A DNA stretch of 64,000 nt from the NCBI GenBank assembly GCA_963575745.1, contig CAUYUJ010016059.1:2449849-2513848 (forward strand), written 5' to 3'. Origin of the DNA: Prorocentrum cordatum. Its lineage: Eukaryota; Sar; Dinophyceae; Prorocentrales; Prorocentraceae. The notes beneath the pieces were generated by a model. It was not told where the DNA came from and ran no database searches. It saw only the letters and a list, made by a program, of their open reading frames with translations. Position 1 is the first letter of the stretch, and every line of letters starts with the position of its first letter. Below are positions 3,892-51,145 of this stretch, one piece after another. Made by a program: the position numbers and the translations under genes.

Positions 3892-4060
3892 AGTCACCAC
3901 CCACCAAACCACCCCAACCCAACCCGAAGGCTCAGATTTACAGTCGATTTCCAGTGGGGGGGGGTCGGGGAACATCGAAAAAACACGCGTGGAACCCTTA
4001 CCCCCCCCAACCCGAAATTCGGGCCTTCGGGTTGGGTTGGGGTGGTCTGGTAGGTAGTCA
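3892..4060. mobile_element. Foldback/MITE-like element with 37-bp inverted ends
   Basis: The left end (3894-3930) and the reverse complement of the right end (4024-4060) match at about 33 of 37 positions, including an uninterrupted 23 bp around CCACCCCAACCCAACCCGAA. The interior has no coding capacity. A partial, diverged relative lies at 52191-52340. Non-autonomous DNA transposons have this structure; no target duplication can be fixed because of the GC-rich flanks. Confidence 0.75.
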
Positions 4061-4500: not shown

Positions 4501-4518
4501 TCATTACCAGCTACCAGC

Positions 4519-4564
4519 ATCATCATCATCAGCATCAGCATCATCAGCATCATCATCATCATCG

Positions 4565-4597
<33 letters not shown>

Positions 4598-4598
4598 G

Positions 4599-4635
<37 letters not shown>
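4519..4635 (+). repeat. (CAT)n microsatellite
   Basis: About 39 nearly perfect CAT triplets with a few CAG interruptions. Confidence 0.95.
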
Positions 4636-4639
<4 letters not shown>

Positions 4640-4773
4640 GCGCCCCGGATCGGCGGCACTTACCAAAGGCCAGCACAATAAGTATTGTTGATCCCGCCCC
4701 CCTCGGGGGCATTTTTTTCCCAACCATCCTGTGGTGTTGGGTCCTCGTTTTGAAGAGACGGTGCCCCGCGTTC

Positions 4774-4858
4774 CTCTCCTCTCCTCTCCTCTCCTCTCCT
4801 CTCCTCTCCTCTCCTCTCCTCTCCTCTCCTCCTCTCCTCCTCCTCTCTCCTCTCCTCT
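4774..4858 (+). repeat. (TCTCC)n pentanucleotide repeat
   Basis: Perfect TCTCC repeats decaying to TCC-rich sequence, directly before the 90-bp minisatellite. Confidence 0.95.
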
Positions 4859-4878
4859 TCACCCACCCAGTACACCGC

Positions 4879-6400: not shown

Positions 6401-6419
6401 TGGGGAGTTCCATTGAAGA

Positions 6420-7445
6420 TGAAACCCGCAGCTGCGGTACTGACAACTGCATATGGTTGGGTTCTTCGCCAGGCTAATTTCACATTTGAAGTGCTCCCAG
6501 GGAAAGCTGGGAGTCACACGACCGGGCCGTTGGACCCCGAGTTACAACAACAACGGCTGCCGCTTGCTACTTCTCCATCGCTTACTGCGACATCGGTCTC
6601 TCGCGCGGGACCTCTTCACAAGTAATGCAGGAATCGTGATCTCGCGTGGGATTTTGTCAATTTATTCAGACGCCGCGCCTTCGACACTCAAGAATCACGC
6701 TCTCGCTCTGGCTGTTCTCACGATGTACTTGGGGGTCGCGCTATCGCTAGAGCTTTCCTCGCGGTTCATGCAGTACTCACGCTTCAGCAACCCGCTTTTT
6801 CGACCTGGCCGCTTGGGTTCGGCTTCCCGACCCGTCTGTTAGGGTCTGCCCGCCCGATGGGCCCGTTTGGTTCTGCCACGTGTTTTCGGCTCCTAGCCCC
6901 CGTCCTGCTAATCCCGTGCTCCATCCTTCTGCCTCTTCATTCCATCCGTCCTCTCGTCACCTATTTCAGGGGCTGCGCCAAGTACACGCGGCAGGTCAGG
7001 AATCTATACTTCTTGGAGATTCGGGTCGAAAACGGAGATGGCGGCTACGTGTTGAATGGCATATCTCCGATGTATTTGTAAATCGCGCTATCGGTCGAGT
7101 TATCTTCGCGATTCATGTTCGCGCTTCAACAACCCGCCTGCTCGACCTGGCCGCCTGGGCCCGCCTTTCCGATCCGCGCGTTAGGCCACTCGCCCGATCT
7201 GCCAGGCTGGTTCTGCCAACTGCTTTCTGCTCCTAACGACCCTCCTGCTAATCTCTCTCGTGCTCCATCCTCCTCCCTTTCTCTTCCATCATCCATCCGT
7301 CCTTCTTCCACGCGGCAGGTGCACGCGGCAGGAAGGGAACACATACCCCCAAGGGGGGCACGATCGAAGACGAATATGGCGCGTACCGAGGGTTTGCGGT
7401 ATACGTGTTGCATGGCATGCGAGCAAGTCAGAGCGAGCAGTCTCA
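6420..7445 (-). repeat. 0.75-kb repeat family, inverted block
   Basis: One complete and one partial unit in reverse orientation. The reverse complement of 7381-7440 gives the TTGCTCGCATGCC landmark and 6604-6780 gives the AGCGCGATT subrepeats. It meets the forward array head to head near 7.45-7.6 kb. Confidence 0.8.
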
Positions 7446-10400
7446 AAGTATCGATGTTATAATAGTTCGCGGCCCAACAACACAGTTTGGTTACACCAAG
7501 CTTTCCCTGTTAAAATACCGGGTGCCAGCCCCGAGGGGAGCACATCAATTAAACAATGCAATGGCTATTGGAGCGGATATTTTATTTTCTAGAAGTGATG
7601 TTCCAACAACAGAAGCAATCATTTTAAGACTGCGCGCTCTTACTTGCTCGCATGCCATTCAACACGTATATCCCAAACCCTCAGTACCCGCCCTGTTCGT
7701 TTTCGATCGTACCTCCCCGTGGGGGTATATCCTTCCTACCTGCCGCGGGTAGTTGGCGCATTTCCTAAAACAGGGGAAGAGACAACAGATGGAAGAGGAG
7801 CACGAGAGAGACTAGTAGGAGAAGAACTAGGAGCAGAAAACGCGTGGCAGAACCAGACGGGCAGATCGGGCGGGTAGACTCTAACGGGCGGGTCGGGAAG
7901 GTGGGCCCAAACGAGGTCAGAGCAGGCGGGTTGCCGAAACGTGAGCATGAATTGCAAGGGAAGCTCGAGCGATGCGCGATTCTCAATTACACTTGACATG
8001 CCCGAGCGACAGCGTAACTCCCAAGGGTTGGAGGCGCGAAGATTGAATACATTGCGAAGATGTCCCACGCGAGAGCGCGATTCCTGAGTATATTGCACGG
8101 AAGTCCCAGGCGAAAGTTTCATGTCACAATACATTATGAGGAAGTATTAGGCGGGAGCCGTTGTTGTTGTAACTCGGGGGCCAGGGAGCCAGTTTGACCG
8201 TCAACACTTTCTTTGATACAAAACAGGGTGCGAGCCCCGGGAGGGGCACTCTAATAGGAACAAACAGTGTTACCAGATGGGGGGGTAACAGTTTTTCTTC
8301 CAGAAATGCGAGTTCAACAACAACACCACCACCAACAACAACAACACCAACACCAACAACACCACCAACAACAATCAGTCTACTACTACTGTTCTTTCCG
8401 ATCTGCTCACGTGCCATCCAAGACGTATATCCCAAACCATATGTCCCCGACCTCTTCGTCTTCGATCGTACCCCCTTGGGCGTGTATCTTTCTCACCTGC
8501 CGCGCGCATTTACTACAGGCCTTAAGACAAGGGGAGAGAGGACGGGTGGGAAGATGGAGGGAATAGGATGGAGCACGAGAGACATTAGCATGGTTGGGGC
8601 AAGGAACAGAAACATGTTGTGGAACCAGGCGGGAAGCTCGGGTGGGCAGACCCATAGCGGGCGGGTCGGGAAGGCGGGCCGATGCGACCAGGACGACCAG
8701 GACGACCAGGCGGGTTCTTGAAGCGTGGGCTTTGCATGGGCGCGAGGAAGTCTCGAGCCATAGCGCGATCCCCAAGTAAATCGTGAGAAAGGCCAGAGCG
8801 AGAGCGGGTTTCCTTAGCGCCGAGGGCGTATCGTCATAATAGATTGTGAGGAAGTCCCACGCGAGAGCGCGATTCCTACATACATTGTGAGGAAGTCCCT
8901 CGCGAGAACGCGATTTTTCAATACATTGTGAGGATGTCTCAGGCGGGAACCGCTGTTGTTGTACACCAGGGGGCAAAAACACATTTAGGATATTCAACGT
9001 CTCCCGACATAGAAAACAAGATCCGAGCCTTGGGATGGGCATGCCAAATGAAAAAAAAACACAATGTGCCCAGAGGGGGGATCAACAATGCTTATTTTTA
9101 GAAGTGAGACTTCACAAACATCAGCAGCAGCAACAGCAACAACAACAACGATCCGTTCAAGACTGTTCGTTCGTTTCCGCCCGCGCGCCTTCAAACACGG
9201 ATGTCCCAAATCATCAATACCCGCCCCTCGTGTTCGATCGTACCCCCCCCCCCCGTATGGATGTACCTTCCTTGCCTGCCACGCGTATGTAGTGCAGCCT
9301 CTAAGACAGGGTAACAGAGGACGCGTCAAAGAGAGGGGAGAAGGATGGAGCACAACATCAATTTGCAGGATCGGGGCAAAGAGCATAAGACAACCTGTAT
9401 AACCAGACGGGCAGATCGGGCGGGTCGGGAAGGCGGGCCCAGGCGACCAGGACGAGCAGGCGGGTTCCTAAAGCGTGGATCCTGCATGAATCGCGAGGAA
9501 GTCTTAAGTTGCAGTGCCATTCCTAAGTGAACCGCTAAGAATTCCACAGCGATATCCTGATTCCTGAGTGCCGAGGGCGCGGCGTCGAAATATATTGCGA
9601 GGAGGATCCACGCAAACGCGAGGAAGTCCCGCGTAAAAACGCGAGTTGGGAATAGTTTGTGAGGCAGTATTTGGCGGAAGCTGCTTGAGCAGGACAAGCT
9701 TCCCTGGTCAAAGATATCGGGTGCGAGCCCCGAGGGGACATTTTCATTGAAAATCACAATGTGCACCGGTGGTGGGGCATCGATTATATTTTTCTTCAAG
9801 ACTGACACTCAACAACACCAACAGCAAATACCACAACAACAATACCACCAACACTATCAACACCAATACCAACAACAACGCCAACAACAGCGCTCAATTC
9901 AAGACTGTTCGCTCTTATCCGCTCGCGTGCCACGCCACACGTATATCCCAAGCCCTCGGTACCCGCCCTCTTCGTCTTCGATCGTGCCCCTTGGGGTATA
10001 TATTCCTTCGCTTGCCCCGTGCATTTCGAGCAGCCCCTAAACAGGGGAACGGAGGACGGTTGGAAACGCGAGGGAGAAGGATGGAACACGAGAGAAATTA
10101 GCAGCGTTGGGGCACGGAGCAGAAACCAAATTGTAGAATTAGATGGGCAAGTCGGGTGGGCAGACCCCAACGGGCGGGTCGGGAAGACAGGCCCAGGCGG
10201 CCAGGTCGAGCAGTCGGGTTGTTAAAGCGTGAGTTCTGCATGAATCGCGAGGAAGTCTTGAGCGATAACGCGATTCCCTAATAAATCGCGAGAGAGGACA
10301 GGACGAGAGCGTGATACCTGAGCGCCGAGGGCGCATCGTTTGAATACATCCCGAGGAAGCCCCACGCGATATTACATACATCGCGAGGAAATTCCGCGCG

Positions 10401-10617
10401 AAAGTGCGATGCTTCAATACATTGTGATGAAGTACCAGGCGGAAGTCGCTGCCGTTGCAAACCAGGGGCCAGCAACCGAATTCTAATATATTCAATATTT
10501 CCCTGATCGAAAACAGGGTGCGAGCCCCACGAAGGTCATTTTAGTATTGGAAAACGCGATGTGCCCCAGAGGGGGGGTGTCAACAATACTTATTCCTGAG
10601 AAGTGGGAATTCGACAG

Positions 10618-10700
10618 CAGCATTCACAACAGCAACACCACCACCACCAACAGCAACAGCACCAACATCGACAACAACAACAACAACAACAACAACAATA
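10618..10700 (+). repeat. (CAA)n/(CAC)n tract inside a 0.75-kb unit
   Basis: CAA triplets with AGC and ACC interruptions, ending in about nine perfect CAA copies. Comparable shorter tracts sit at the same place in neighbouring units. Confidence 0.85.
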
Positions 10701-11535
10701 ACGACAACCATTTTGAGACTGTTCGCTCTCATCTGCTCGCGTGCCATTCTACACGTATCTCCCAAACCCTCGGTACCTTCCCTCTTTGTTTTCGATCTTA
10801 CCCCCACTAGGGGTATATGTTTCTTGCCTGCGACCCCAGAAGGCAGGGGAAGAGAGGACGGGCAGGGGGAAGGGACAAGGAGGAGGGAACATGATGAAAC
10901 ACGACAGACAAATTTGCAGGAGGCGGGCTAGGATAATAATGCACGCGGCAGAACCAGACGGGCTGATTGGGCGGGTAGACCCCAAATGGCGTGTCGGGAA
11001 GGCAGGCCCAGGCGGCTAGATCGAGCAGGCGGGTTGCTGAAGCGTGAATCCTGCCGGAGTCGCAAGGAAGTCTTGAGCGATAGCGCCTCGTGATAAATCC
11101 AAAGCGAGAGCGTGATACCTGAGTGCTGCGGGCGCGGCGTCTGAAAACATGGCGAGGCAGTCCCACGCGGAAGCGCGATTCCTGTATACGTGGTAAAACA
11201 TTTCCAAGTGAGAGTACGGTTTGAGAATCAATTGTGAGGAAGTATCAGGCGGGAACCGCTGTTGTTGTAAACCGGGGGGGCGTTGTAAAAAAAACAATGT
11301 GCGAGTCCCGGGAGAAGCACTTTAATCGAAACGTGCAACGGTTATCGGGCAGGAGGGTCAACCATTTTTTTTCGAAGTGAGAGTTGAACTCCGACAACAA
11401 AAGTATCAACAACCACCACAACAACGGCAATACCAATTTGACTCGTTGCTATATGCTCGCGTGGCATTTGGCACGTATGTCCCAAACCCTCGATACCCGC
11501 CCTCTTCGTATTCGATATTGTCCCCCTTGTGCGTG

Positions 11536-11571
11536 TATATATAAATATATACATATATATATATATATATA
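11536..11571. repeat. (TA)n microsatellite
   Basis: TA-rich run inside a unit of the 0.75-kb array. Confidence 0.9.
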
Positions 11572-13860
11572 AACATGTTTTTATACATGTTTTCCTGCCG
11601 CGCGTAGTTGACGCAACTCCGCACATGAACGGAAGAAGGGAGAAGGGAAGAGACAGGGTGGATGAAAAAGGACGGAGCACGACAGAGATTTGCAGGAACA
11701 GGGCTCGGAGCAACAACCTGCGTAACCGGACGGGCGGGTCGGGCGGGCGGACCCTAACGGGCAGAGGTCGGGCGGGCGGGCCCAGACGGCCTGGTCGGGC
11801 GGGCGGATCGAACAGGAATCGCAAGGATGTTTCGGGCGATACCACGATTGCCAAGCAAATCGGAAGGACATCCAGAGCGAGAGCGTGATTCATGAGTTTT
11901 GGGGGCACGGTGTCGCAACACCTTGCGAGGAGATACCGCGCGAAAGCGCGACCCTTGCATAACATCAGAGAAGGTCCCGCGCGAGATCGCGAACTTGACA
12001 TACATCTTTGAACATTGTATCAGGGGGCGCAGTTGTTGTTATTGCTGTTATTGCTGTAAATCAGGGCCCCAGTCCAGTTTGAGGACCACGACTTTGCTTT
12101 ATCATCAAACAGGGCGCGAGTGCCGCGAGGAACACTTTAATTGAACCACACACAAGGTGCACCAGAAGGTGCTCGCGTGATTTTCAACACGTATATCCCA
12201 AACCCGCGGTACCCGCATTCTCCGTACCGAACCCATTGGGGGATATCTTCCTTACTTGTCTCGTGTAGTTGGCGCGGCTACTAAGACAGGGGAAGGAAGG
12301 GATAAGGGAAGAGACAACGGGGATGGAAAAGGATGGAGCACGAGAGATATTCGCAGGAACGGACCTGAGCAGGGGTAGAAGCGGCAGAACCATGTGGACG
12401 GGTCGGGCGGGCGGACCCTGACGGGCAGATGTCGGGCGGGCGGGCCCAGACGGCCGGGTCGAGCGGGCGGGTCGCTGAAAGGTCAGTGCAACAGGAATCG
12501 CAAGGATGTTCCGGGCGATGGCGCGATCTCCAAGTCAATCGATAGGCAAACTACCAGCAAGGGCGTTATTCATGTGTGTTGGGGGCCGCCGCAATACATC
12601 GTGATGAAGTACTTCGCGAGAGCGCGATTCCTGGATAATTGGGGGGGGGCTCCCGCGTGAGAGCGCGATTCTGTGTATCGGTTGGGAACCGTTGCTGTTG
12701 TGAGTCGCGGGCCAGGGGCGCAGTTTGAGGATTGAGCATTTCCCTCATGAAAATTGGGTGCGACACCTGGGAGTAGCGTTTAAACTGAAACAACCCAAGT
12801 GGGCCGTTGTTCATGAGAAATGGGAATCCAACAACAATCACCATTCTAAGACTGTTGGCTATTATCTGCCTGCGTGCCATTCAGCACGGATATCCTAAAA
12901 CCCTTTGTGCCCGCCCGCATCGTCTGCGGTCATACCCCCTTTTATGGGCATATCTTCCTTACCTGCCACGCGTATTTAGCGCAGCCCCTCAAACAGGGGA
13001 AGAGAAGACGGATGGAACGGGGAGAGTACAGAATGGAGCACGAGAGAGATTATAGCAGGAGGGTGGCTAGGAGAAGAAACCACGTGGCAGAACCAGACGG
13101 ACGGGTCGGGCGGGCGGACCCCAAAGGGCGGATCGGGAAGTCGGGCCCAGGCGGCCAGGTCGAGCAGGCGGGTTGCTGAAGCGTGTGAGTATTGCATGAA
13201 TCGCGATTCCAAATCTGGATCGTGGGGAAATCCAAACCGAGCGCGTGATTCCTGAGTGTCGAGGGCACGGCGCCGCAATAAACTGTGAGGAAGCAGCTCG
13301 CGAGAGCGCGATTCACTGATATGTGGTGGGGAAGTGCCGCGCGAGAGCGCGATTTTGAAATACATTGAGAACAAGTATCAGGCGGGAACCGTTGTTGCAG
13401 TAAGTCGGGGGCCAGGGTCGCAGTTTGAGGAGCAAAACTTTCCCTGATCAAAGGTCGCGGCTGCTGTTGGTCGCGGCGTCGCGCCGACAACGGTGTGTCT
13501 GTACTTGTCCTGTGTTGGCGCGATGGCTGCCGACGCTTCGTGCAGCGCCGGCTGCGATATTCGTTTTCATTGTTTGCCCTGCCGGGCTTCATTCTTTGCC
13601 TTGTTGAGCAGGCACTCTTGGGGACAAACAGATTTAGCCATATAAAATCAGATTGCGAGCCCAGGGAGGAGCACTTTAATTAAAAAGCGCCAGGTGCACC
13701 GGGGGGGGGGATTCTCATCAATTTGATGTTAGAGTTGACCATCCAGCAACAACCATAATCTTACGACTGTTCGCTCTTATCCGCTCCCATGCCATTCAAC
13801 ACGTACATCGCAAACCATATGTACCCGCCCTCTTCGTCTTCGATCATACCCTTTGGATGT

Positions 13861-13867
13861 GTATATA

Positions 13868-13915
<48 letters not shown>

Positions 13916-13917
13916 TA
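13861..13917. repeat. (TA)n microsatellite
   Basis: About 25 TA dinucleotides, in the corresponding position of a later unit to the tract at 11536. Confidence 0.95.
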
Positions 13918-14479
13918 CACACATTACGTGCCCCGCGTATTTAACGCAGCCCCTCAAACAAGGGAAGAGCAGCACGAGAGAGATTAGCACGAGGGGGGGC
14001 CAGAAGAAGAACGCACGTGGCAAAACCAAACGGGGTCGGGCGGGCGGACCCCAACGGGCGGATCGGGAAGGCGGGCTCAGGCGGCCAGGTCGAGCAGGCG
14101 GGTCGCGGAAACGTGAGTCTTGCACAAATCGCAGGGATGTCTCAGGGGATAGCGCGATTTCTTGAATAAACCGTGAGGGAATCCAAAGCGAGCGCGTACC
14201 TCTTGAGAGGTCGGGTGCAGCGTGTGAATATGTTGCGACAAAGTCCCACGCGAGGGAGCGACTCTTTCAATAATAGTGAGGAAGTCACGCGCGAGGCCAG
14301 GATATTTAATAAATTGTGAAGGAGTATCAGGAGGGAACCGTTGTTTTGGTAGTTCGGGGGCCAGCAACACCTTAGGAGGCGTACGTCATGGGAAAAAAAC
14401 ACAATGGGCACCAGAGGGGGACCAACAACAGCAATTCTTTAGAACAGAGGGCTCGGCAACAACAGTAGCAAACACACGT

Positions 14480-19800: not shown

Positions 19801-20160
19801 GCCCGCCGCAGGCGCTGAAAAACGACTTGTTGCCGGACATCCACAGGAACACCATCGGCACAACCACCAAACAACCATCAGGACAATGGATACTCCAGCA
19901 CAGGCCATTGGACATTGGATAAGATAAGATGGGTTGGATTGGAAGAAATGGATTGGATAAGATAAGATGGGTTGGATTGGCCCGCCGCAGCCGCAGAAAC
20001 ACATGAACTTATGGATTGGGTTGGGTGGATTGGATTGCGTGGGATCAGATAAGGTGGGACAAGATGGGTTGGAGAAGATAATATGGATTGGATTGGACAA
20101 GATGGATTGGATAAGTTAAGCTGGATTGGATAAGAAAGCCCGCCGCAGGCGCCGACAAAA
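19801..20160 (-). repeat. GGATTGGATAAGATAAGAT repeat with GCCCGCCGCAGGCGCC motifs
   Basis: Degenerate 10-20 bp repeats of TGGATTGGATAAGATAAGA, interrupted three times (19801, 19980, 20138) by the motif GCCCGCCGCAGGCGCC or close variants. The reverse complement of the same arrangement is found at 48976-49260. Confidence 0.8.
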
Positions 20161-20169
20161 AAAATGAAT

Positions 20170-20530
20170 TTTGAAATTGGCGACATGCTCTAGCGCCGGG
20201 ACGCCCAGGACACCCGGGACACCCGGGACCCCGCCCGGCCCAATTGGGACACCTCCCGGCCACCGGCGGACGGGAAACGGACTTTCGCTCCTACTGACAC
20301 CCGGGACACCTGGGACACCGCCCGGCCCATCTGGGACAATTCTCGGCCACTGGCGGACGGGCAGCGGACTTTCGCTCCTACTTCGGCCTAGCTACAGGAG
20401 GATCACGCGCAGCTGCGTCTCGCCCGCACGCACGACATGAACACGAAACCGAAACCCATCTCCCGGTGGGGGGTCTCGGTCTCACTGCGGTCTCACCCCC
20501 CAGCCTCCGAACGTCGTTCTTTTGCATCCC
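20170..20530 (+). repeat. Dispersed CCCGGGACACC module, copy A
   Basis: Two tandem half-units with GACACCCGGGACACC, 'CGCCCGGCCCA', 'CGGACGGG' and 'GACTTTCGCTCCTAC', followed by 'CGGCCTAGCTACAGGAGGAT'. It closely matches the reverse complement of 48640-48955 and the third copy at 49640-49890. Confidence 0.85.
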
Positions 20531-33046: not shown

Positions 33047-33803
33047 CGCCGCTGAGGAGGAGGAGGAGGAAGAGGAGGAGGAGGAGGAAAAGGAGGACGA
33101 GGAGGAGTAGGAGAAGAAGGAGAAGGAGGAAAAGGAGGGAAAGGAGGAAAAAAAGAAAAGGAAAAGGAGAAGAAGGAGAAAACGAAGGAAAATAAGGAAC
33201 ATATGGAAAAGGAGGAGGATGAGGAGGAGGAGGAGGAGGAGGAGGGAGGAGCAGGAGGCTGAGAAGGAGGAGGAGGAGGAAGAGGAGGAGGAGGAGGAGG
33301 AGGAGGAGGAGGAGGAGGAGGAGTTGGAGTTGGAGTTGGAGTTGGAGTTGGAGTTGGAGTTGGAGGAGGAGGAGGGAGGAGGAGGAGAGGAGGAGGAGAG
33401 GGAGGGGGAGGAGGAGGAGGAGGAGGAGGAGGAGGAGGAGGAGGAGGAGGAGGAGGAGGAGGGGGGAGCAGGAGGAGGAAAGAGACGAGAAAGGAGGCGG
33501 AGGAGGAGGAGGAGGAGGAGGAGAGGAGGAGAGGAGGAAGGGGAGGGGGAGGAGGGGGAGGAGGAGGAGGAGGAGGAGGAGGAGAAGGGGAGGAGGAGGA
33601 GAGAGGAGGGAGAAGGCTCGAGGAGGATGAGGAGAAGAAGGAGGAGGAGGGAGGAGGGGAGAGGAGGAGGCTCGAGGAGGAGGAGGACAGGGCGGAGGAG
33701 GAGGAGGAGGAGGAGGAGGAGGAGGAGGAGGAGGAGGAGGAGGCTCGAGGAGGAGGAAGAGGAGGACAGTGCGGCGAAGGAGGAGGAGGATGAGGAGGAG
33801 GAC
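33047..33803 (+). repeat. (GGA)n microsatellite, about 750 bp
   Basis: Almost continuous GGA/GAG triplets with GAGTTG and GGCTCGAGG interruptions. Long Glu-rich, Arg-rich or Ser/Pro-rich frames on both strands are by-products. It lies at the 3' end of the minus-strand LINE. Confidence 0.95.
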
Positions 33804-34335
33804 GCCGCAGTTGACCAGTGGTCAGTTTCAAAGGCGTTGGAAGGACCAGCCGTTCAAGCAAGGGCGGCAGGGGAGAAAAGTATCCCCCCCTTTCTTGAAT
33901 TTGCTCAAATCGGCATTGCCAGTTTGGATGGCCTCCTTACACTATTTGAAAAGATTATGAGCGCTGCGTGAGGCATGGCTGCCACACGTCAAACATATGT
34001 AAGTACCCTTGGCCGAAAGGACCATGTCATGAGATGGATCAATATACCTGGCCCCGATGTGCACATTTCTGAGCTGCCTGGCACCTTCGTGCCCAGCTCT
34101 GGGTACAGCGGCCTGGCACCGGGAGTACAATAACTCCTGTGACGGGATATTACCGTTGGAGTTGACAGGAATTACAGAGCAACATACATTACATAACAAA
34201 CGGCAATCGGAACCTTCGCCGACTGGGATCATTGAGTGCGCACCGGCGCGCAGCTGCTTGGCGAGCTTCGGGCGAGGGTTCAAAGAACGAGGAGGGAGGA
34301 ATTGGGGGAAACGCTGTTTGGCTCTGGCTTTCTTC
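33804..34335 (-). other. LINE 3' untranslated region
   Basis: Follows the stop of the RNase H frame. No conserved frame, no poly(A) run and no terminal short repeat; the last bases before the microsatellite read CAACTGCGGCG on the minus strand. Confidence 0.55.
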
Positions 34336-35559
34336 CTAGCTCGAGACTGTCCTTCGGGACTGAGTGCCTTCAGGGACCTCCGAGGACCTCGAGAGGAACA
34401 TCTCAGAAGCACGAATTCGAACCGCTCGGGTCACGGCCTCAGAAATCAGAACACCTTCCACCTCCCCCGCCTGCAACTGTATTTTCTTGGCCGTCTGCTC
34501 GGCCAGCTGGTCGGCTATCCTGTTACATACCCAGGTGAGCAGCATGTTTTGCCTCGCGGCCGCTAGCTCTGGTGTCATGTGCGACTTGATGTTGAGAATG
34601 ACCGTCGGCTTCGATCGAAGCAGAAATTGACTTCTTCGCCATTCGTTCCGATGGCCATCAGGAAAGAAATACAAGACGATTTTTCGCAACATTCTTCTGA
34701 ACGTAGGACGAGCCCGCGACAAAGACCAGCTGATGGCCCACGGGGGCACCTCCAGTAACCTCAAGAAGGCTATCGCTTCTCCATGGTTGATGGTTAGGTC
34801 TCCCCATGTGGCTCCAGTAGAGACCCTCGCAGCCGTGAGCTCAGGATCGGGATTGGCGATGTCGAAACGCTGGAACACGATGAGAGCCCAATATACCATC
34901 CGAAACCCAGCCTGATAAGAGCACTTTCCTGCCGACGCGCCCCCTGCGCAGAGGATGATACCTGCGTCGGCTGGGAACTCGCCGTGCGAGTGCACGAACA
35001 TGTCGGGCTCGTCGGGCGGCAGAGATATTTGTGTCCATGCAGCTGGTGTGAGACCTCGCAACCATACCGACGGCTGAGAATCCATCTGTGCACGTGCTCT
35101 GCGCGCGTACTCCTCGCTGCTGGTGACCGAGGGGAGGCCGGGGTTCGCAGAACATTCCCAAAGTCGGTGGTACGTGGTCACAGGCTGACCGCTGTCGCCG
35201 CGATCACAAACGATTGAAAAATCTGGTGGGCCGATGACATTTCGAATTCTCGTTTTAGGCCACTGGTCTGCACAGCATACGTTCACCAGAGCACCTGCCG
35301 AAGTATGTGTATCCCGATCTCTAGACCATCGTAGCTGCTGTCGTGCGTCCGTCAAATCGACCCCGTCCCATACGTCGTCGCTTTCGTGATGGTTGGCGGC
35401 TCGCTTACAAAGGATGCGTTGCGGCGTTCTGGCGAAGCCCCGTCGCAATATCATCCAGATCGAGGGGGCCCGCTTGGAGGATCTCTGGAGAAGCCCGATA
35501 GACATTGCTCCGACCTGAGACCCAATGCCAAGGCCCGACGGGGTCCCAGTTGATGTCAA
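34336..35559 (-). pseudogene. LINE C-terminal Cys/His box and RNase H
   Basis: The longest uninterrupted LINE frame, 407 codons. Around residues 118-136 there is C-x12-H-x4-C (ending YHRLWEC), as in the zinc-binding box after RT. Residues about 190-360 resemble RNase H: CAGGASAGKCSYQAGF (where a catalytic Asp is expected in place of Ala), GEAIAFLRLLEVPP with a conserved Glu, and NIKSHMT followed by WVCNRIADQLAE with the terminal Asp. The first Asp therefore seems lost. The domain helps remove template RNA. The start is arbitrary, because in the living element it was part of a longer protein. Confidence 0.75.
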
Positions 35560-36346
35560 GCAAGGTGTTCACGACGGCCCTTGCGGGCCCAGTGAGCTTC
35601 CGCCAACGGCGCTCGGATTCTCCATGGCCTGTGGGACGTGCGCGCCCCAGTCTCGCGCCGCGAACTTGCGCGATTCGTCTCCAGAGGACAGAGTGGCCAT
35701 CCAGCTGTCGAGCAGTCTAAATGCCTGCGAGATGACTGGGTCTTTGTCGCCCAGCTCAAGCTGCAACAGGGCGTCGAGGCAATGTCCGCGAATAGAGCTG
35801 GCGAAAGGTGAAAGTGCCTCCCAAAGCTCGACGCCAAGCCTGCGCTGCCGAAAGACTTGCGCCATGCACTGGTGCATCGTATTGTACTTTAGCGTAGCAG
35901 CCCTGAAGTCTGACCCTGCGTGCTGCGCGCTTGTCAGTGCAACCCGCTCCCACAAGCATGCGTGCCTTGCTGACTTGTTTCCACGCTACTGCGCGACATG
36001 CTGCTGCTTTAGGACGCGCTCGCATGGTCGCGCCTCTATCGGCGCCGAGGTCAAAAGCTCTGTGTGCCAAAGTAATCTTCATAGTGTGGTTTGCCAGCTT
36101 GCGTGCAATATATGTAGCCAGACTCTTGCCCCCCACGATGATCGCATTTTTGCCGGCAATGCTCAAGTGCGCTTGCCCCGCATCTTGGCCAAGAGAGCCC
36201 CAGCTTCGGCGAGGGCCTGCGGGAGGAACCCGACGGAGCCAAATGCATACTGCGTGGTATCATAAACCCAGGAAGTGGTGCACACCGTCGGGTAAAGTCT
36301 GTTGTGAACAGCCTCCAAAATCTAAAACATATAGAATCTTCCAAAA
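35560..36346 (-). pseudogene. LINE RT thumb/connection region
   Basis: Frames 35569-35955 and 35756-36166 carry AHRAFDLGADRGATMRARPK and ALGGTFTFRQLYSR-like stretches of the type found between RT and the Cys/His box in dinoflagellate LINEs. They lie in different frames, so at least one frameshift separates them. The RT catalytic DD box, expected near 36200-36340, is not readable. Confidence 0.55.
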
Positions 36347-37012
36347 TCAACTCCTCGGCGTGCACTGGCAACGATGCTCATGTGCGCCTGGGCAGGGGGG
36401 GTAGCATCTCTCTGCCCTGATACTCCGAACAACGATGTGCGAAAGGCCATCCATAAGCAAAGCAAGCGGCGGCAAACTCAAAGCCAGGCCCTGCTCGAAG
36501 AGCCGCTCGCACACAGGCGAGTCGTAGAAACTGTCGATGCTCCAGAGCAAGCTGGCAGACGCAGTATGTTTGGGCCCCATGCGCACACCTTCGCCCGCGA
36601 AGGTTCTGAGAAAACCCACGCGAAGACCAGGGGAACCATGGGCGGCATGGTCCCATGTTCCTGCCATGCGGTCAACCCACTCAGAAGGATAGATCTGCCT
36701 GGCCGAACTCCACAAGCGAACCAAATCTGGCAACAATACATGCTGAATGTGCCATAGCCGTTCCCCATCGACGTTCGCAGTCGTTGAGAGGCAGCGAGAT
36801 GCGCGACGTCCGAGGGGGGGGGAGTATTTGAGCGATCCACTGAGCTGCTCGATGCCCGCCGACCTTTTGGAGTTGATCTGCGTGACTGCGATGGCAATTT
36901 GTTCGGGTCGGAGCTCCGGCCGCGGCTGATCCACCCATTCTTGATGGGCGTGCCGCGATAGATGAGAACACGGCGTGCCGAGATTATTTTTGAAGCCAAT
37001 TTCTGTTGCCAC
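36347..37012 (-). pseudogene. LINE reverse transcriptase core
   Basis: A 221-codon frame with INSKRSAGIEQLSG (motif preceding the fingers, usually K..GxD), LLPDLVRLWSSARQ, and ASLLWSIDSFYD, which corresponds to RT motif A with its catalytic Asp, then the LALSLPPLALLM helix. RT copies the LINE RNA into DNA at the nicked target. The frame ends before motif C. Confidence 0.7.
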
Positions 37013-38179
37013 CGAGAGCTCTGCTGAATGCGAGCGCCCTTCAGGTTTGCATACCTCCCAACACTGTCGCGGTGCTCCGTCTCGACTCGGGCCTCGGGCA
37101 TGAAGAAGCTATGAATTTGGCCTCATCCGTGCTCAACCAAAACCACGTGCCTAATTTTATGTTGTTGCGTGGCTTTCCTTGGCGGATTTCCTGTCGAGCG
37201 TCAGAGCAATTTCGGTTGCTGACCTTTCCATCGCGCAGAGAGCGCCGCGCGAGAGGCCATGTGCACCCGGAAGGGTACTGACCCAATCATGCCCGTCTCC
37301 GCCCGCGACTGCCGTGCCCAGGTAGAGGCGTGTCTGCTGGGGCCCGCGCCGATCCGCGCACCGAGAAGTCTCTTCTCGCCGCGATCTGGGCCATCTGTTT
37401 TTCCTATTATTCCTTTGCGCGACAACTAAGGGGGGGAAGGGAGCTCGCCGTCTCCCGTAGAAGCGGCAAGCGCACGCGGAGCGATACGCCCATACCATCA
37501 GTGACATTGATGAGCTCGTTGATCCATTCTGAAAACTGCAGCCGCCATTTGATTGAAGTATCCGAATGCGAGCGCATTGGTGCGGTCTGCTACATAGGCA
37601 CCAGCTTCAACGCAGGGGGGCCTCTCCTCGGCCGCAGTGCTACCGCGATCGCTCTGGTGGTGCGTCCAGGACACAGCATAGAAACCTTTCAAGGCAACTG
37701 GCGAACAAATCCATATTCTTTACCCAGAGACAGAGCGGCGCCAGGATCATACCGGCACGAAGGACTGCTTTGGATTAAACCTGGCGGTTTTGCCGAGGCA
37801 GAACGCGGCAACGTGCGACTCTCGATGCCATTCCACAGCTCGTCCAGATCATGAGTAGACCGTTGGTGATACTTGGCAGGGTCGCAGGTATCGTCGGCCT
37901 TTCTGGTCTTGCCGTTGTTGGTCCCGCTGGCATGCGTCTACCACATGCGCCTGGGAGCCTCCGAATCAAAATCGCCAAATTCTCGGCGCAGGAACTTGCG
38001 AGCATCCTCCGGAGATTTAGCGACAGAATGTGCGACCTGAGGTTGGGCCAACAGATCCTCGTCATCGGTGTCGGTGTTCCCCTTCATCGTGTCGTGCCGC
38101 TGCTCCTGCTGTTCATGATGCGCGTGGCTCTGCTGGCGCCTGAGGATCGAGCTCGAGCTTCTTCCGTGGGCACTTGCTG
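37013..38179 (-). pseudogene. LINE linker between endonuclease and RT
   Basis: Broken frames, including one with SPEDARKFLRREFGDFDSE near 37950-38020. The region spans the distance normally seen between EN and RT and holds no separate gene. Confidence 0.5.
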
Positions 38180-39011
38180 TCAGGGTCTGCCTGGATCTTG
38201 CTTGGTAGCGGCGGTCAAGGGTTTGGGCATATGAAGGATACGGCGGACGGCGCACTGTGAATCAATATTCATTTTCAAAACCGTGCCACGATTATCGCCT
38301 CCCTCCGCATCAGTCTGAATCGAATCGCGGCAAATGGAACACACATCAACGTATCCAATGGCGTAGTCGATGATGCGCGAGGGCTTGCCTCTGGCGAAGG
38401 TGTCCTGATGCCTGTCGGGAAATAAACATGTCCGTTCCACCTGCGCATCCAGATATCATCCAGTTAGCAAACTCCACAGGCGTGGAATTCAAATCGGCCA
38501 AGCTGACCCAAGGACCAGGGTGGTTCGAAATCAAGCCAGATATCGTGAGCAGCTTGCTCACGTTGCATGGGCTCTTAGGTCCGACTGACGCAGTAAGGTA
38601 AGCACCAATCACCAGACATGATACTCGAGGCATCTCCCACTCCGAGGTAAAAGCATATCTGAAATGCAATGAACCATTGGCATCACCACTGTCACCAACG
38701 TTCACAAGACCAATCACCTTATTTGGGGGGGGACGAAATGGAGTCCGTGAATGATGCTGCCGAATGCCGAGAACAATACCACCTGCTTTACGCGACTTGG
38801 CCGTAGGGCATGTTGGCGATACAATCCCATGCCACTTGTGCTGCTTGAGTGTACTCACAATAGTCTGAGCGTCACTGGCCACGACGTGGGTCTCTGGAGC
38901 GATGGCAATGTCAACGCCGCCCTCGGCAAAAACTGGGGCTCTCCTGTGCCCGCACCGAGAGATTGCGAAGTAAAATGCGGCGAACGCCTGGACGTACATC
39001 GGGTTGCTCAT
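38180..39011 (-). pseudogene. LINE AP-type endonuclease
   Basis: The frame 38346-39011 has IAIAPETHVVASD (the Glu of the QETH-type box), RKAGGIVLGI, and WVSLADLNSTPVEF (Asp and Asn of the GDxN box kept, Gly replaced by Ala). After a frameshift, 38180-38440 gives SRIIDYAIGYVDV (the S-x-IDY box) and a MNIDSQCAV end where S-D-H is expected. Such EN domains of the exonuclease-endonuclease-phosphatase superfamily nick the target to start reverse transcription. The catalytic His is not evident. Confidence 0.75.
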
Positions 39012-40404
39012 ATCTGGGTCTGGGATAGATCCGCATCGTGTTGCCCTCGAGTTTCCTGTGAACTTGAGGCAGCCTTGCTCTCATATGATTCAGCTTTGGG
39101 CTGAACTCCAGATCGAGCCGTCTCCGGGAGTTTCTGGACCTACCTTGGCGAGGCTTTGGGGGGAAGTGGAGGGGGGGGTTGGCTGGGGCTTCCGCAGGCT
39201 GCGGCGCCGCAGGCGGTGCAGATGCGACAGCCGCGGGAACTGGCTCCTCGGCAGTTCCTCCATAATTTGGCTCAGGTTCAGCATCGTGCGCTTCACCATC
39301 TGCGGCTGCCTCCCCTTGACCTCCGAGTCGGCGACGTTTGGTCGCCATGCGAGCCTTGGAATCGTTGAACTTCTTCTTGCGAGCGCCCAGCTGTGCAGCA
39401 GCTGGACCGACTGCCTGACTGATGAGTTACTTGGTCTCTTTCGCCAGGGTGTTCTTGTGGTTCTGCCATGCATTGATATCCTCGGGGGACAGGTCGAGTT
39501 CGGAAAAGTCGAACGCGTCGCCGTCATCCCATTCGAACATCTTGTCGAGGTCGCTGTCCTCCACCAGGAAGGCCGACAGGTTTAATTTTGACTTGCGGTC
39601 GTTGGAGTTCTCGTCGTGCTGCTGCTGCTACTGTTGCTTGAGACGTTCGAGGTCACTCTCCGGCTGGTGTTCATGAGCAAGACATACATCGGCTGCATCC
39701 TGCGCTGCAGTCTGGACAGTCTTGCGTGCTCGTGCGTACCACTGGAGACAATCTTGCTCATGAGCGAGGGCCTTCTCGAGAGCCTCGTCTGCCTTGCGTG
39801 CTGCCGCTGCCAACCTTTGTGCTGCACGCTCGCGCTCGAGGTTGGGGTTCGTGGCTGGCTGCTGTGGCTGCGCGGGGCGAGCTGTTTGCTTGATGGCCTT
39901 GAGCTGAGAGCTGGCTTGAGGTACGCGTTGAAAAAGCGCCTTTGCAAGCTGGTCCGTGGCGGGTGCGAAAAAGGGTGCGTGGAGCCGTTTGCGAGGATGT
40001 ATGTGCCGCCGCCTGGAGACCATTGGCCAGGGGGTGGCTGGCGGAACGGGCTGACCTGCTTGCTGGGCGCGGCGGCATTGCCCAACGCGGGAGGCCCGTA
40101 GCTCCATGCACCTGCGTCTCGCTGTGGGGGATGGCCGCCGATGGGACGCAAGACACCACTGCACTGCCAGCATTGAGTATGCTTCTTCCAGTTTCACTTG
40201 TAATGGCAGCCGTCATAAGGACAAGACACATAGCCTTGCGCACCAGCATACTGAGCCTTCCATGTCCCTATGACTGCAGGGCCTGGCTGCCCTGGCCGTG
40301 AATGAAGGATGGATGCTGCGCCGCCTGGGCAGGCTCGAAGCTCTGAAATGGTGGGATATAGCCGCGGACTAGCGGTATCCACGTGTTCCCTTGCGGAACA
40401 ACAT
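38911..40404 (-). pseudogene. LINE ORF1-like region with zinc ribbon and coiled coil
   Basis: Near the 5' end, CPYDGCHYK and TQCWQC form a C-x4-C plus C-x2-C pair (about 40155-40225), a zinc ribbon split by an in-frame TGA at about 40193. Further on, after a frameshift near 39975, a long frame contains ERERAAQRLAAAARKADEAL (coiled coil), an acidic stretch with WDDGDAFDFSELDLSPED and a basic segment with TKRRRL near 39335. In-frame TAG (about 39614) and TAA (about 39433) are single-codon breaks in otherwise open sequence. Such regions bind the element's RNA. It joins the endonuclease in another frame. Confidence 0.65.
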
Positions 40405-40440
40405 CTTGAGCCAGATGGTTTGAGCCAAAATGGCTACGAC
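40405..40440 (-). other. Double spliced-leader (DinoSL) relict
   Basis: Read on the minus strand, 40438-40420 is CGTAGCCATTTTGGCTCAA, 19 consecutive bases of the 22-nt dinoflagellate spliced leader; the 22-nt stretch 40440-40419 differs from it at two positions. It is followed directly by CCATCTGGCTCAAG (40418-40405), a shortened second copy that starts just after the internal AG of the leader, and then by ATG. No GT splice donor or Sm-like site follows, so this is not an SL RNA gene. Stacked full-plus-truncated leaders are the known signature of mRNAs that were trans-spliced, reverse transcribed, reinserted and trans-spliced again. Confidence 0.85.
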
Positions 40441-40965
40441 GGAGGAGGAGGCGGCGGCGGAGGAGGAGGAGGAGAAGGAGGAGGAGGAAAAGGAGGAGGA
40501 GGAGGAGGAGGAGGAGGAGCGAGAGAGGAGAGGAGGGCCGAGCAGGGTGGACGAAAGTTGAATATTATGGCAGTGTTCCTCCATGGGCGCCGGCAGGAAA
40601 AGGAATTGACGGACGAGTCGGAGGAGGAACAAACATGAGAAGGAGGAGGAGGAAAGCCTCAAAAGGTGGAGGAGGGAACGGGAGGAGGAGGAGGAGGAGG
40701 AGGAGGAGGAGGAGGAGGACGAGGAGAAGGAGAACGAGGACGTCATGAGGAGGAGGAGGAGGAGGAGGAGGAGGTGCAGGAGGAGGAGGAAAAATAGGAA
40801 GAGGAGGGGAGGATCAGGAAGTGGAGAAGGAGGAGGGTGGCACCGATAAGCAGAAGGGCGGAGGAGGACGAAGAGGAGGAGGAGGAGGAGGAGGAGGAGA
40901 GGAAGGAGGAGGAATGAGGCGGAGGAGGGATGGAGGGAGGGGGGAAGAGGTGGTGCCTATCCGTG
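40441..40965 (+). repeat. (GGA)n microsatellite flanking the LINE 5' end
   Basis: GGA triplets with GGC and AAA interruptions. A less repetitive stretch, 40535-40660, lies inside it. Glu/Gly-rich and Ser-rich frames through it are by-products. Confidence 0.9.
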
Positions 40966-46411: not shown

Positions 46412-47567
46412 AGTGCGTATCCTTCTCGGCGAAGCTCTTCATAGGGCCACGCAGCGTGCGAGGGGTGTGCCGAAATGTGTGGCGGGGGCGCATGTGGTCA
46501 CAGCCGCTGGACCCTTCGGTGGAGCTACCTGTCTTTGGGTCCACGGAACGTCTGGGGGGGCGTGTCGAAGTGGATGGCGGGGGCGCACGTGGTCACAGCC
46601 AGTGGGGCCTTCGGTGGACCACCCTATGGGGCCGCGAAGCATGTGACGGGTGTGCCGAAATGGGTGCCGCGAACGCATGTGGCCACAGCAATTTGGGCCT
46701 TCGGTGGAGCTTCCTGTGGGGCCACGAAGTGTGTGAGGGGTATGTCGAAGTGGGCGGCGGGGGCGCATGTGGTCACAGTCGTTGGGGCCTTCGGTGGAAC
46801 TCCCGATGGGGCCGCGACACGAGGGACGGGTGTGCCGAAATTGATGGCGGGGGCGCATGAAGCCGCATCCAGTGGGGCCTTCGGTGGAGCCCGTCATGGG
46901 GCCGCGAAACGTGTGAAGCATGCGCCGAAATGGGTGCCGCGGGCGCATGTGTCCACAACCGCTGGGGCCGCCCGTGGAGCTTTTTATGGGGCCGCGAAAC
47001 GTGTGAGTGATGTGCCGAAGTGTGAGGCGGGGGCGCCAGTGACCACAGCCGCCGGAGCCTTCGGTGGAGCTCCCTATTGCGCCACGAAGCGCGTGGGGGG
47101 CGTGTGCCGGCATTGGCGGCGGGGACACATGTGGACACAGCCATTGGGCCTTCGTTCGAGCTTTCTAGGCCACGAAATTTGTGGAGGGTGTTCCGAAATG
47201 AGCGGCGGGGACGCATGTGGTCGCAGCCACTGGGGCCTTCGGTGGAGCTCGCTAAACGGGCGGCAAAACGTGGGGGGGGGGGCGCGCCGAAATGGGTGGC
47301 GGAGGCGCATGTGGTCACAGCCGCTGGACCTTTCGGTGGAGCTTCCGATGAGGCCGCGAAACGTGCGAGAGGGGTGTCAAAATTGGTGGCGGGGGCGCAT
47401 GAGGCCACAGCCACTGGAGCCTTTGGTGGAGCTCCCTATGGGGCCGCGAAGTGTGTGAGGGGTGTGCCGAAATGGGTGCCGCGGGCGCATGTGGCCACAG
47501 CAATTTGGGCCTTCGGTGGAGCTTCCTGTTGGGCCACGAAGTGTGTGAGGGGTGCCGAGGATGAGGG
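46412..47567. repeat. 90-bp minisatellite, array B (inverted)
   Basis: About 13 diverged units, 'GTGTGAGGGGTGTGCCGAAA', 'GGGGCGCATGTGGTCACAGC' and 'GGGGCCTTCGGTGGAGCTCC', the reverse complement of the unit at 4.88-6.40 kb. A plus frame of 327 codons (46475-47458) and minus frames of 229 and 213 codons run through it. The plus frame repeats a peptide like GAFGGAPYGAAKRVRGVPKW, which is also open in the diverged part of array A. Confidence 0.9.
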
Positions 47568-47659: not shown

Positions 47660-48640
47660 AAGTAACCTCGCAACATGACTTTTCAAAAATGCATGCGCTC
47701 ACGCTCTTGCGAAATCTTACGAGAACTATCGGATTTGAAGTATGGAAAGTGTTCCTCGCGCGCGCGCATGTCGAACTCATTCGAACGCCCTTGCGTGCGT
47801 GCTGTCGTCGCAACGAGCACTTTCAAAAACCTGGCGCAGTGCACGCGCGCGCGTCGTCGCGCGCGCACCCAGGAATCCTCCGACAAGTTCGGGGCATCGC
47901 AAGGATTTCGGAACCGAAAGTTTTGAAAACATATTCATAGCAATGGTCGCGTAACAGGACATTTCCAAAAGCATGCGCTCGCGCTCCAGCGAATGGTCAT
48001 GGAAACCATTGGTTCGTCAACGTGTTCATCAAATTCGACCAAACGTGCCCCTCGTGCGCGCATGTCGAAGTCATTCGAACTCCCTTGCGCGCTTGCTGGG
48101 TTGGGGGAGCGCGATCCCGGTCAAAAACTGCAGCGCTGGCCACTCGGGCGCGTCGTCCGCGCGCGCATGTCGAAATCCTCCCTGAAAAACCTTCGTCACC
48201 GACGCGAGGACACAATCATCGTCACCAGCGTGGTCAGCATCGGTGCCGCAATTGCCCTTGCCGTCGTCATTGTCATCATCGTCACCAGACTCGCCATTAT
48301 CATCATCGTGTCTGCAAGCGTCGGCGTTGCCATGATACCGTGCCCGCCCGGGCAACTGGCTCGCACTGGCGCGCCCGCGCGCGGCCTGCGAGACGCGCTG
48401 GGGCGTTCCCAGCGGTCAGCGCCACCGCGGCCGCGTCGGTCGCGCCAGGCCAGCAGGCCGCCCTGCGTGCGAGGCTCCGCCCGCTAGCGCGGCTGCAGCG
48501 AGGCACCAGCCAGCGCCAAGCAGCCATCGAAATCGCCGCCGCATGAATTTTGCAAACCAAGTTGCGGGTGGGTTGGTGGGAAGGTTTGGTGAGCAGTGGG
48601 GGTGACAATTTCAAGTTCGGCCGGGCGAATCGCACCACAT
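47660..48640 (+). repeat. Repeat of about 0.9 kb, copy 3
   Basis: Same ordered blocks as at 44.09-46.01 kb, separated from them by the 90-bp array. Confidence 0.75.
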
Positions 48641-49262
48641 CGAAGGTTGTGGGGGTGAGATCGCAGCGAAACGGAGACCCCCCACCAGGAAGTCGGTTTC
48701 GTGTTCGTGTCGTGCGTGCGGGCGAGGCGAAGCTGCGCGTGATCCTCCTGCAGCTAGGCCGAAGTAGGAGCGAAAGTCCGTTGCCGTCCGCCGGTGGCTG
48801 GGAGGTGTCCCAGTTGGGCCGGGCGATGTCCCGGGTGTCCCGGGTGTCAGTCGGAGCGGAAGTCCGTTTCCCGTCCGCCGGTGGCCAGGAGGTCTAGTTG
48901 GGCCGGGCGGTGTCCCGGGTGTCCCGGGCGTCCCGGCGGTAACGCACGTCGCTAATTTCAAAATGTATTTGTTTCGGCGCCTGCGGCGGGCTTTCTTATC
49001 CAATCCAGCTTGTCATCTCCAATTCATATTGTCCAACCCAAATCCATCTTATATTATCCCACCCATCTAGTCCCATCTTATCTTACCCCACCCAACCCAA
49101 TCCACCCAACCCAATCCATGAATTCATTTGTTTCTGCGCCTGCGGCGGGCCAATCCAATCCATCTTATCTTATCCAATCCATCTCTTCCAATCCAACCCA
49201 TCTTATCTTATCCAATACTTCTTATCCCATCCAAACCAATCCACCCAACCCAATCCATTAAT
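48640..49262 (-). repeat. Inverted copy of the 19.8-20.53 kb module (copy B)
   Basis: Its reverse complement follows 20.17-20.53 kb nearly base for base by eye through the CCCGGGACACC half-units and the CGGCCTAGCT block. It then gives the GCCCGCCGCAGGCGCC motifs (48976-48991, 49136-49150) and the GGATTGGATAAG repeats of 19.9-20.16 kb in matching order. Confidence 0.85.
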
Positions 49263-50094: not shown

Positions 50095-51145
50095 CAGCTT
50101 CCCCAATGAAAGCTTGCCTCTGTAGGGGTCCAAGCGGATTCATGTGGTTTTGGTCAGGTACGCCGCCGATTTCGGCGGCACGCCCAGGTGCCCGGGTGCG
50201 AGGGTGTCCAGGTGCACGGGTGCCCGGGTGAGGTGCGTCTCTGGTTTCCGCGGCCGGGTGCCCGGGTGCCCGGGTGCTCTATAGCCCTATAGCCCCACAG
50301 CTATGTAGCCCTATAGCCTTATAGCCCTTTCGCCCTGTAGCCTTAAAGCCCATAGTCCTGTAGCCCTAGAGCCCTATAGCTCTATAGCCCCATAGCCCCA
50401 GAGCCCTAGAGCCCATAGCCCTAGAGCCCTAGAGTCCCATACCCCTATAGCCCTATATCTATAGCCCTATAGCTCTACAGCCCTTTAGCCCTATGGCCCA
50501 TAGTCTGAGAGCCCTATAGCCCCATAACCCCCAAAAAGATTCAGATTGGGGCTTCTCTCCGGTACCATATTGCTAGATGCGCACGGTTTGGGGTCCACGG
50601 CGGCAATCATCATCATTAGTTGTTTCGAGCGCGGTCGCATTTGACCGTAAGACGGTCACGGCTACTGCCACCATGAAAAGATGCCCGACCACCCTCAACA
50701 CAGACACCGTTGCTTATATTCCCCAATCAAGTATTGGCACTGTAGGGGTCCTAGCGGATTCATATGGTTAGGTCAGGCCCGCCGCCGATTTCGGCGGCAC
50801 GCGCAGGTGCCCGGGTGCCCGTGTGCCTGGGTGAGGTGCGCCGCTGATTTCGCGGCCGGGTGCCCTGTAGTCTTATAGCCCCATCGCCCTATAGCCCTAT
50901 AACCCTGTAGCCCTATAGCCCTATCGCCCTATCGCCCTATCGCCCTATAGCCCCATAGCCCTATAGCCCCGTAGCCCTCTAGCCCTATAGCCCCATCGCC
51001 CAATAACTCATACCCATAGCCCCATAGCCGCCCTATAGCCCTATAGCCCATAGCCCTAGAGCCCTAGAGCCCCACAGTCCCATAACCCCAAAACTGATCA
51101 TGATTCGGGTTTCTTTCCGGTATCATTTTCTTAGTGCTTCTGCTG
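50095..51145 (+). repeat. Tandem duplication of about 620 bp with TAGCCC arrays
   Basis: TGTAGGGGTCCNAGCGGATT (50121 and 50741), the 'CGCCGATTTCGGCGGCACGC' palindrome block and 'CAGGTGCCCGGGTGC' are repeated 620 bp apart. Each copy is followed by an array of CCCTATAGC-like 9-bp units (50275-50528 and 50868-51090) and by 'ACCCCAAAA...TTCCGGTA'. Confidence 0.85.

Follow-up and report, generated by a model that had tools for sequence, protein, structure and literature searches.

The stretch of Prorocentrum cordatum DNA analysed here (64,000 nucleotides; hereafter the window) carries on its minus strand a long interspersed nuclear element (LINE), now decayed, whose 5' end is a dinoflagellate spliced leader followed directly by the truncated remains of another. 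We put at roughly 85% the probability that this is a LINE copy whose RNA was trans-spliced with the leader before reverse transcription, so that the host leader would serve as a renewable 5' end of the element. To preserve its 5' end from copy to copy, a LINE ordinarily has to specify where its transcription begins; in these LINEs, that job is apparently done by host trans-splicing. We observed leaders at LINE 5' ends elsewhere in the genome, near-fixed in the family that shares a motif with the window element, far more uniform than the element body, and, where stacked, bounded by AG. From these sequences we infer that LINE RNA acquired its leader through trans-splicing, that transcription entered from upstream, and that the cap arrived with the leader.

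Leaders at the 5' ends of LINE copies

The evidence draws on copies chosen by an element motif and not by the leader. This motif, GGATACCGCTAGTCCGCGGC, stands close behind the leader in the window element and in two loci elsewhere in the genome (L021 and L027). We searched one assembly of 4,128,499,153 bases in 21,875 contigs, described as made partly with transcript-guided scaffolding (PMC10666404); all genome counts are lower bounds. The motif occurs at 4,126 places with up to two mismatches (2057 + 2069), against 21 (11 + 10) for the reversed control. We read entries 3-42 of the resulting list, all exact motif matches, the first two entries being already known. A leader lies upstream of the motif in all 40 copies: it is exact in 27, has one change in 8, two in 1 and three in 2, is decayed in one (L064, 7 mismatches) and is cut short after CCGTAGCC in another (L079). 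Leader and motif are 26 nt apart in 26 of the 40, a near-fixed distance that rules out their chance adjacency, and an ATG stands directly behind the leader in 20 of the 26 copies with this spacing. Over these 26 copies, pairwise identity averages 0.92 within the leader, falls to 0.62 across the 26 nt behind it and is down to 0.36 immediately past the motif. This difference between the leader and its neighbour suggests that the leader is renewed at insertion, and does not decay or pass on with the element. The initial annotation had proposed that LINE transcripts are trans-spliced, reverse transcribed with the leader and inserted, and the 40 of 40 copies together with the 0.92 versus 0.62 make this very probable. 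The case it had named as contrary, full-length copies of the same family that start at the same point with no leader, did not appear among the 40 motif-chosen copies, two of which have leaders that are decayed or cut.

The leader also led to LINEs when it was itself the starting point. The reference dinoflagellate spliced leader is DCCGTAGCCATTTTGGCTCAAG, in which D is T, A or G (PMC7245778). Allowing two mismatches, it matches 33,832 places in the genome (16,858 + 16,974), a count that includes true spliced leader (SL) RNA genes, versus 9 (7 + 2) for the reversed pattern. Our leader sample consists of 40 of the first 42 places listed, all exact leaders (left out were C1:893877, which lies inside L027, and C26:180892), with 20 loci read to ~9 kb and 20 to ~700 bases. 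LINE domains were found by profiles (E up to 1e-3) in 15 of the 20 long loci (L021, L023, L025-L030, L032-L034, L036-L038 and L040), every match being on the leader's strand; some of the tested loci had also served to build the profiles, L023 and L033 not being among them. A Pfam scan of 12 open reading frames (ORFs) from 10 leader loci identified reverse transcriptase and/or apurinic/apyrimidinic (AP) endonuclease domains in L021, L025, L028, L029, L030, L032 and L038, some below the curated cutoff. RVT_1 was above the cutoff in L025, L028 and L030, and PF03372 in these three and L032, while RNase H was found in L032 (below cutoff) and L038. In L025, a single 1869-aa ORF with Pfam endonuclease and reverse transcriptase domains opens within the leader and ends ~30 bases short of the 3' tract. 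The leader-headed LINEs include two groups with no BLASTP match between them at 1e-5.

The window element and its double leader

The window element and its parts are listed below; strand is given for each, and tracts are named as read on the element's strand.

33803..40440, minus: whole element, ~6.6 kb, between two TCC tracts
40441..40536, minus: 5' flank TCC tract, with a further tract at 40681-40928
40419..40440, minus: outer spliced leader of 22 nt; 19 consecutive bases are exact, and the second and last base are changed
40405..40418, minus: inner relict leader CCATCTGGCTCAAG, cut exactly after a leader's internal AG (CCGTAG|CC)
40402..40404, minus: ATG directly behind the relict
40385..40399, minus: hairpin 1 (GTTCC-GCAAG-GGAAC), also in relatives, with weaker support
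40361..40380, minus: family motif, which includes hairpin 2 (CCGC-TAGTCC-GCGG); compensatory changes maintain its stem
38349..39080, minus: decayed AP-endonuclease-like fragment (profile 7.5e-5, best of 1250 window fragments), aligned to L032
36350..37108, minus: decayed reverse transcriptase fragment (profile 1.3e-7, best of 1250 window fragments)
34339..35716, minus: decayed C-terminal part, covered by two overlapping fragments with similarity to the C-terminal ORF of L032
33054..33802, minus: 3' flank TCC-rich tract

Read from 40440, the minus strand is G-T-CGTAGCCATTTTGGCTCAA-A-CCATCTGGCTCAAG-ATG. Relative to the reference, D is G, the second base is changed from C to T, 19 bases are exact (40438-40420) and G is changed to A at 40419. 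The 19 exact leader bases reported earlier for the first block are those at 40438-40420. The two leader blocks of that report are likewise present; the single base that it placed between them is no spacer, since 40419 is the mutated last G of the outer leader. Its description of the second block as a leader truncated at the internal AG also holds: the sequence at 40418-40405 corresponds to the AG-truncated relict CCATTTTGGCTCAAG, from which it differs by one missing T and one T replaced by C. The leader 21-mer with up to three mismatches has a single match in the window, whereas 100 dinucleotide shuffles average 0.00, and these shuffles and the reversed genome control rule out a chance leader match. 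The inner block taken alone is unremarkable (TTTTGGCTCAAG with up to two mismatches has 8 window matches against 4.6 expected); it is significant because it is placed directly behind a full leader. We conclude that the leader-plus-relict observation is real and confirmed. An older leader cut at its internal AG, with a newer one added, points to at least two rounds of trans-splicing and insertion recorded in this copy; two rounds are its simplest reading, in agreement with the proposal that this happened at least twice in the lineage.

To identify the element body, we ran profiles built from leader-headed LINEs elsewhere in the genome on 1250 six-frame window fragments. The best window matches of the endonuclease, reverse transcriptase and C-terminal profiles all lie inside the element, on the minus strand and in collinear order, the C-terminal matches being at 35408-35716 (1.9e-8) and 34339-35568 (5.4e-8); none of the fragments outside the element scored below E = 0.01. 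At the protein level, the window element aligns in order with L032. Judged by these matches, it is a decayed copy of the leader-headed LINE kind, and the leader pair sits, as had been claimed, at the 5' boundary of a 6.6-kb LINE. The longest minus-strand stop-to-stop stretch in the element is 410 aa, and the GC content of the window is 60.1%. When the window was compared with itself, the matches listed did not include another copy of the element.

Behind the leader there is a conserved hairpin, and probably a second one. Hairpin 2 (four pairs) shows two-sided changes at all four pairs across 13 sequences, with 98.1% of cells paired, a count in which L038 was kept though its better stem sits one base off. 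Its covariation is 0.596 versus 0.169 in shuffles (0/500), and slid registers reach at most 0.122. A fold of 30 sequences by RNAalifold likewise contains hairpin 1 and lengthens hairpin 2, both being less well supported. A search of 16 leader-headed 5' ends against Rfam gave nothing up to E = 1, and one of the window gave nothing at gathering scores. Our guess is that the hairpins may serve RNA recognition by the element's proteins.

Stacked leaders, insertion sites and a proposed cycle

Double leaders like that of the window recur throughout the genome as a minority class. Leader plus relict (36 nt, up to two mismatches) occurs at 2747 places (1364 + 1383) and at 0 for the reversed control, which corresponds to ~8% of the 33,832 leader places, an approximate fraction because the mismatch tolerance spans different lengths. 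Among motif-chosen copies, 3 of 40 are stacked (L072, L091 and L093; 7.5%, 95% interval 1.6-20%), and in the leader sample an exact relict is present in 5 of 40, with 3 more having a relict within 4 mismatches. We read 20 further exact stacks, following the list and skipping any met before; a third perfect unit is present in one of them, and a third and a fourth in another (L105 and L119). In L037 and L040, the sequence behind the leader looks like an untruncated older one, first T included, which would fit splicing at an AG upstream of it. Two members of one subfamily with 80-94% amino acid identity, L025 and L036, have a single leader each.

The initial annotation had suggested that each LINE copy counts its own retrotransposition cycles, a suggestion that these numbers do not support: 37 of the 40 motif-chosen copies are unstacked, stacks make up only ~8% genome-wide, and L025 and L036 are both single. 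The rarity of stacks rules out stack height as a general measure of the number of cycles. Since single-leader copies dominate a family of thousands of places, the old leader seems usually to be replaced via its terminal AG. Single-leader parents that stack in ~8% of insertions fit the data equally, so that copies need not ever have gone back from a stack to a single leader. Stack height is a reflection of acceptor choice more than of age, and gives no generation count. What it does offer is a countable genomic record of acceptor choice, in the form of single, double, triple and quadruple leaders.

The flanks of these elements are mostly simple repeats. Of the 40 loci in the leader sample, 19 have TCC, 9 GGA and 12 other sequence as their 5' flank; some of these other flanks are also simple repeats, such as ATC or AGACAC. 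Upstream of the 40 motif-chosen copies there is TCC in 30, a pyrimidine-rich sequence in 5, other sequence in 5 and GGA in none. Among 17 loci that have a tract-type 5' flank and a downstream tract (window included; read from the tract table, with the 5' class of L039 taken from sequence reading), the 5' tract and the first downstream tract agree in strand in 14. In L032 and L034, the first tract, near 3.3 kb, may be internal, and the next one, near the end, is on the same strand; these two loci, L023 and L029 have GGA on both sides. The 15 downstream junctions that we read, again with the window, enter the tract without poly(A); this tract may be either tail or target. As the window insertion lies in a microsatellite, a target-site duplication there would look just like the repeat. 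Together, these flanks suggest preferential insertion into TCC/GGA microsatellites, with an orientation that seems family-specific, as the motif family is never flanked by GGA (0/40) whereas L023, L029, L032 and L034 have it on both sides. At the 5' end, the base before CCG is T in 36 of the 40 leader-sample loci (7 of 9 among GGA flanks), which indicates that the copy reaches the first nucleotide of the leader.

Further observations concern the same ends. L034, L053 and L055 form a GGA-flanked group that opens with the leader plus GCTAAACG / ACTTAAACG, in tract orientation opposite to that of the window family. L025, L036 and L027 share a 3' terminus, CAAGGT(T)ACGTTC(A/G)CTCC, before the tract, which resembles the end of the leader exon plus a splice donor. 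A second, stacked leader lies inside the 3' TCC tract of the LINE of L027 (L027 6197-6292), which suggests that tracts can take successive insertions.

The cycle that we propose would begin with a LINE copy, mostly in a microsatellite, being transcribed from upstream, so that its RNA includes the flank and the old leader. The spliceosome would then add a fresh 22-nt leader at an AG in or near the old one, as the existing junctions suggest. The usual acceptor would be the AG that ends the leader (CTCAAG|), with exact replacement of the old leader as the result; in ~8% of cases the internal AG (CCGTAG|CC) would be used, leaving a truncated relict and hence a stack; and sometimes the acceptor would be an AG upstream of the old leader. 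A cap would be implied by such trans-splicing. Finally, the LINE endonuclease and reverse transcriptase would insert a full-length copy, with the leader to its first base, preferentially in a TCC or GGA tract, and the host leader would become the element's renewable 5' end. We hypothesize that the TCC tract doubles as the pyrimidine tract for the next trans-splice.

A wider extension of this cycle is conceivable, to which we give slightly less than even odds. These LINEs would need no 5' end of their own: in TCC tracts they would ride on read-through transcription, the tract and the AG in the copied leader would form a ready acceptor, and the host would restore an exact, capped leader in each cycle, so that the element would in effect have domesticated the leader. 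The majority of "relict" leaders in this genome would then head LINEs and not retrogenes, and the same reverse transcriptase would explain host retrogenes. Because leader-headed LINEs have evidently copied leader-bearing RNA, they are a concrete candidate for the source of the enzyme by which dinoflagellate mRNAs are returned to the genome. Moreover, as 15 of the 20 sampled leader loci are LINEs, counts of retrogenes made by upstream leaders will include LINE heads.

Alternative explanations and known systems

Several results weigh against the trans-splicing reading or parts of it. The LINE identity of the window copy comes from self-built profiles: Pfam found no reverse transcriptase or endonuclease up to E = 0.1 among the 10 window fragments scanned, and a PDB sequence search of the window copy likewise gave neither. 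Both blanks are resolved by the relatives, which carry these domains and whose profiles match the window. The profiles found no LINE domain in 5 of the 20 long leader loci (L022, L024, L031, L035 and L039), and Pfam found nothing in the scanned ORFs of L037 and L040 and no LINE domain in L022. The motif lies only ~26 nt from the leader, so the 40 of 40 holds for copies that reach the 5' end and not for all copies. Some of the 20 exact stacks may be host retrogenes; the flanks of the 20 are TCC in 6, GGA in 3 and other in 11. Outside TCC/GGA tracts lie also the 12 of 40 leader-sample loci noted above, and the flanks are unlike in 3 of the 17 loci (L024, L035 and L037). The GGA-flanked families, which have no adjacent pyrimidine tract, speak against the tract as a general acceptor need. 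The exact tract CTCCTCCTN was counted ahead of an exact leader at just 467 places, a minimum, as this figure covers one register. As to the hairpins, one of five covariation measures for hairpin 2 (further pair types) is no better than shuffles (229/500), and hairpin 1 is only partly supported.

An ancestral LINE might have captured the leader once and passed it on since as a fixed 5' end or promoter. This would suit the presence of a leader in each of the 40 family copies, always at the 5' end, and host retrogenes may use the leader as a promoter, a TTT(G) promoter inside it having been proposed for them (PMC6050394). We nevertheless regard a single capture as unlikely, since an inherited leader should not be 92% identical where the adjacent element is 62% identical, and since leaders head two LINE groups that have no BLASTP match at 1e-5; the stacks, which are cut exactly at the internal AG and reach up to four units, argue in the same direction.

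Two further explanations dispense with trans-splicing of the LINE RNA, and both appear very improbable, the second slightly more so. LINE reverse transcriptases can jump templates, and one running off LINE RNA onto SL RNA could have attached a leader sequence. Such a jump would start at the 3' end of the SL RNA and copy its intron part; the copies read have the exon joined at its splice end (no separate search for the SL intron was made), and AG-cut relicts need splicing. The SLACS/CRE elements of trypanosomes insert into SL RNA genes, and if the LINEs studied here did the same, the leader would be target DNA. That the leader adjoins the element and that the 3' ends of L025, L036 and L027 hold the donor-like CAAGGT(T)ACGTTC would agree with this. 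However, the leader is in most cases immediately preceded by TCC, GGA or other simple tracts, a tract of matching strand usually follows at the 3' end, and the stacks would be left unexplained. No insertion into an SL RNA gene was encountered among the 40 motif-copy flanks, the five "other" ones not having been compared with SL RNA genes. The trans-splicing of LINE RNA accordingly remains our preferred reading.

Leader relicts are established for dinoflagellate host genes (PMC3229502 and PMC7245778, citing Slamovits and Keeling 2008). As far as the passages of these sources go, those retrogene relicts have the same form as in the window, a leader with CCATTTTGGCTCAAG behind it, truncated at the internal AG; they are attributed to trans-splicing, reverse transcription and re-integration. 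Those relicts concern host genes and a number of viral insertions, whereas the LINEs here are of an autonomous type, could be a source of the reverse transcriptase, and mostly carry one leader per copy. In full-length transcripts of Polarella, one relict was reported in 0.68% and 2.31%, and the leader in 13.54% and 50.39% (PMC7245778). The element that mediates dinoflagellate retrogenes has been called unknown, with long terminal repeat (LTR) elements favoured (PMC6050394), and for endogenous viral sequences in Symbiodiniaceae, integration by means of LINEs has been proposed (PMC10235124).

Comparable cases exist outside the dinoflagellates. In Schistosoma mansoni, six genome-encoded SL exons are merged with transposable elements, and the authors suggest trans-spliced, retro-transcribed elements (PMC5832876); there, the six cases come with their caution about chimeric assembly, whereas here we find thousands of leader places, a fixed position and stacks. 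The trypanosomatid L1Tc is transcribed from an internal promoter, Pr77, into RNAs that are not spliced, and has a ribozyme cleaving upstream of +1 (PMC8190864). According to the cited text, the L1Tc/ingi elements are, like ours, LINEs in a trans-splicing host with a short 5' hallmark that sets the 5' end; unlike them, the LINEs described here have the host leader itself as 5' end, and the 16 5' ends searched gave no Rfam match, neither to an HDV-like ribozyme nor to any other family. Non-LTR retrotransposons that target microsatellites have been described among elements with a restriction-like endonuclease (PMC4640811). They share preferential insertion into simple repeats with our LINEs, which differ in their AP-type endonuclease, a mostly TCC/GGA target and an orientation that seemingly differs by family. 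We found no description of leaders as the 5' ends of dinoflagellate LINEs in the openly licensed literature, which was covered mostly at the level of titles, abstracts and passages.

The window also contains other repeats. Two arrays of one 90-bp unit (4879-6361 and 46444-47554) lie 40 kb apart on opposite strands; they are roughly 70% alike and have a 270-bp higher-order period. A 0.6-kb inverted repeat (19914-20510 and 48640-49216; 86% identity) includes an 84-87-bp tandem repeat, and long arrays of an 8-base unit (CTATAGCC / GCCCTATA) occupy 50279-51072. Finally, the region 2800-14300 holds many overlapping degenerate repeat copies of about 64-70% DNA identity, some of which match in opposite orientation at the protein level.
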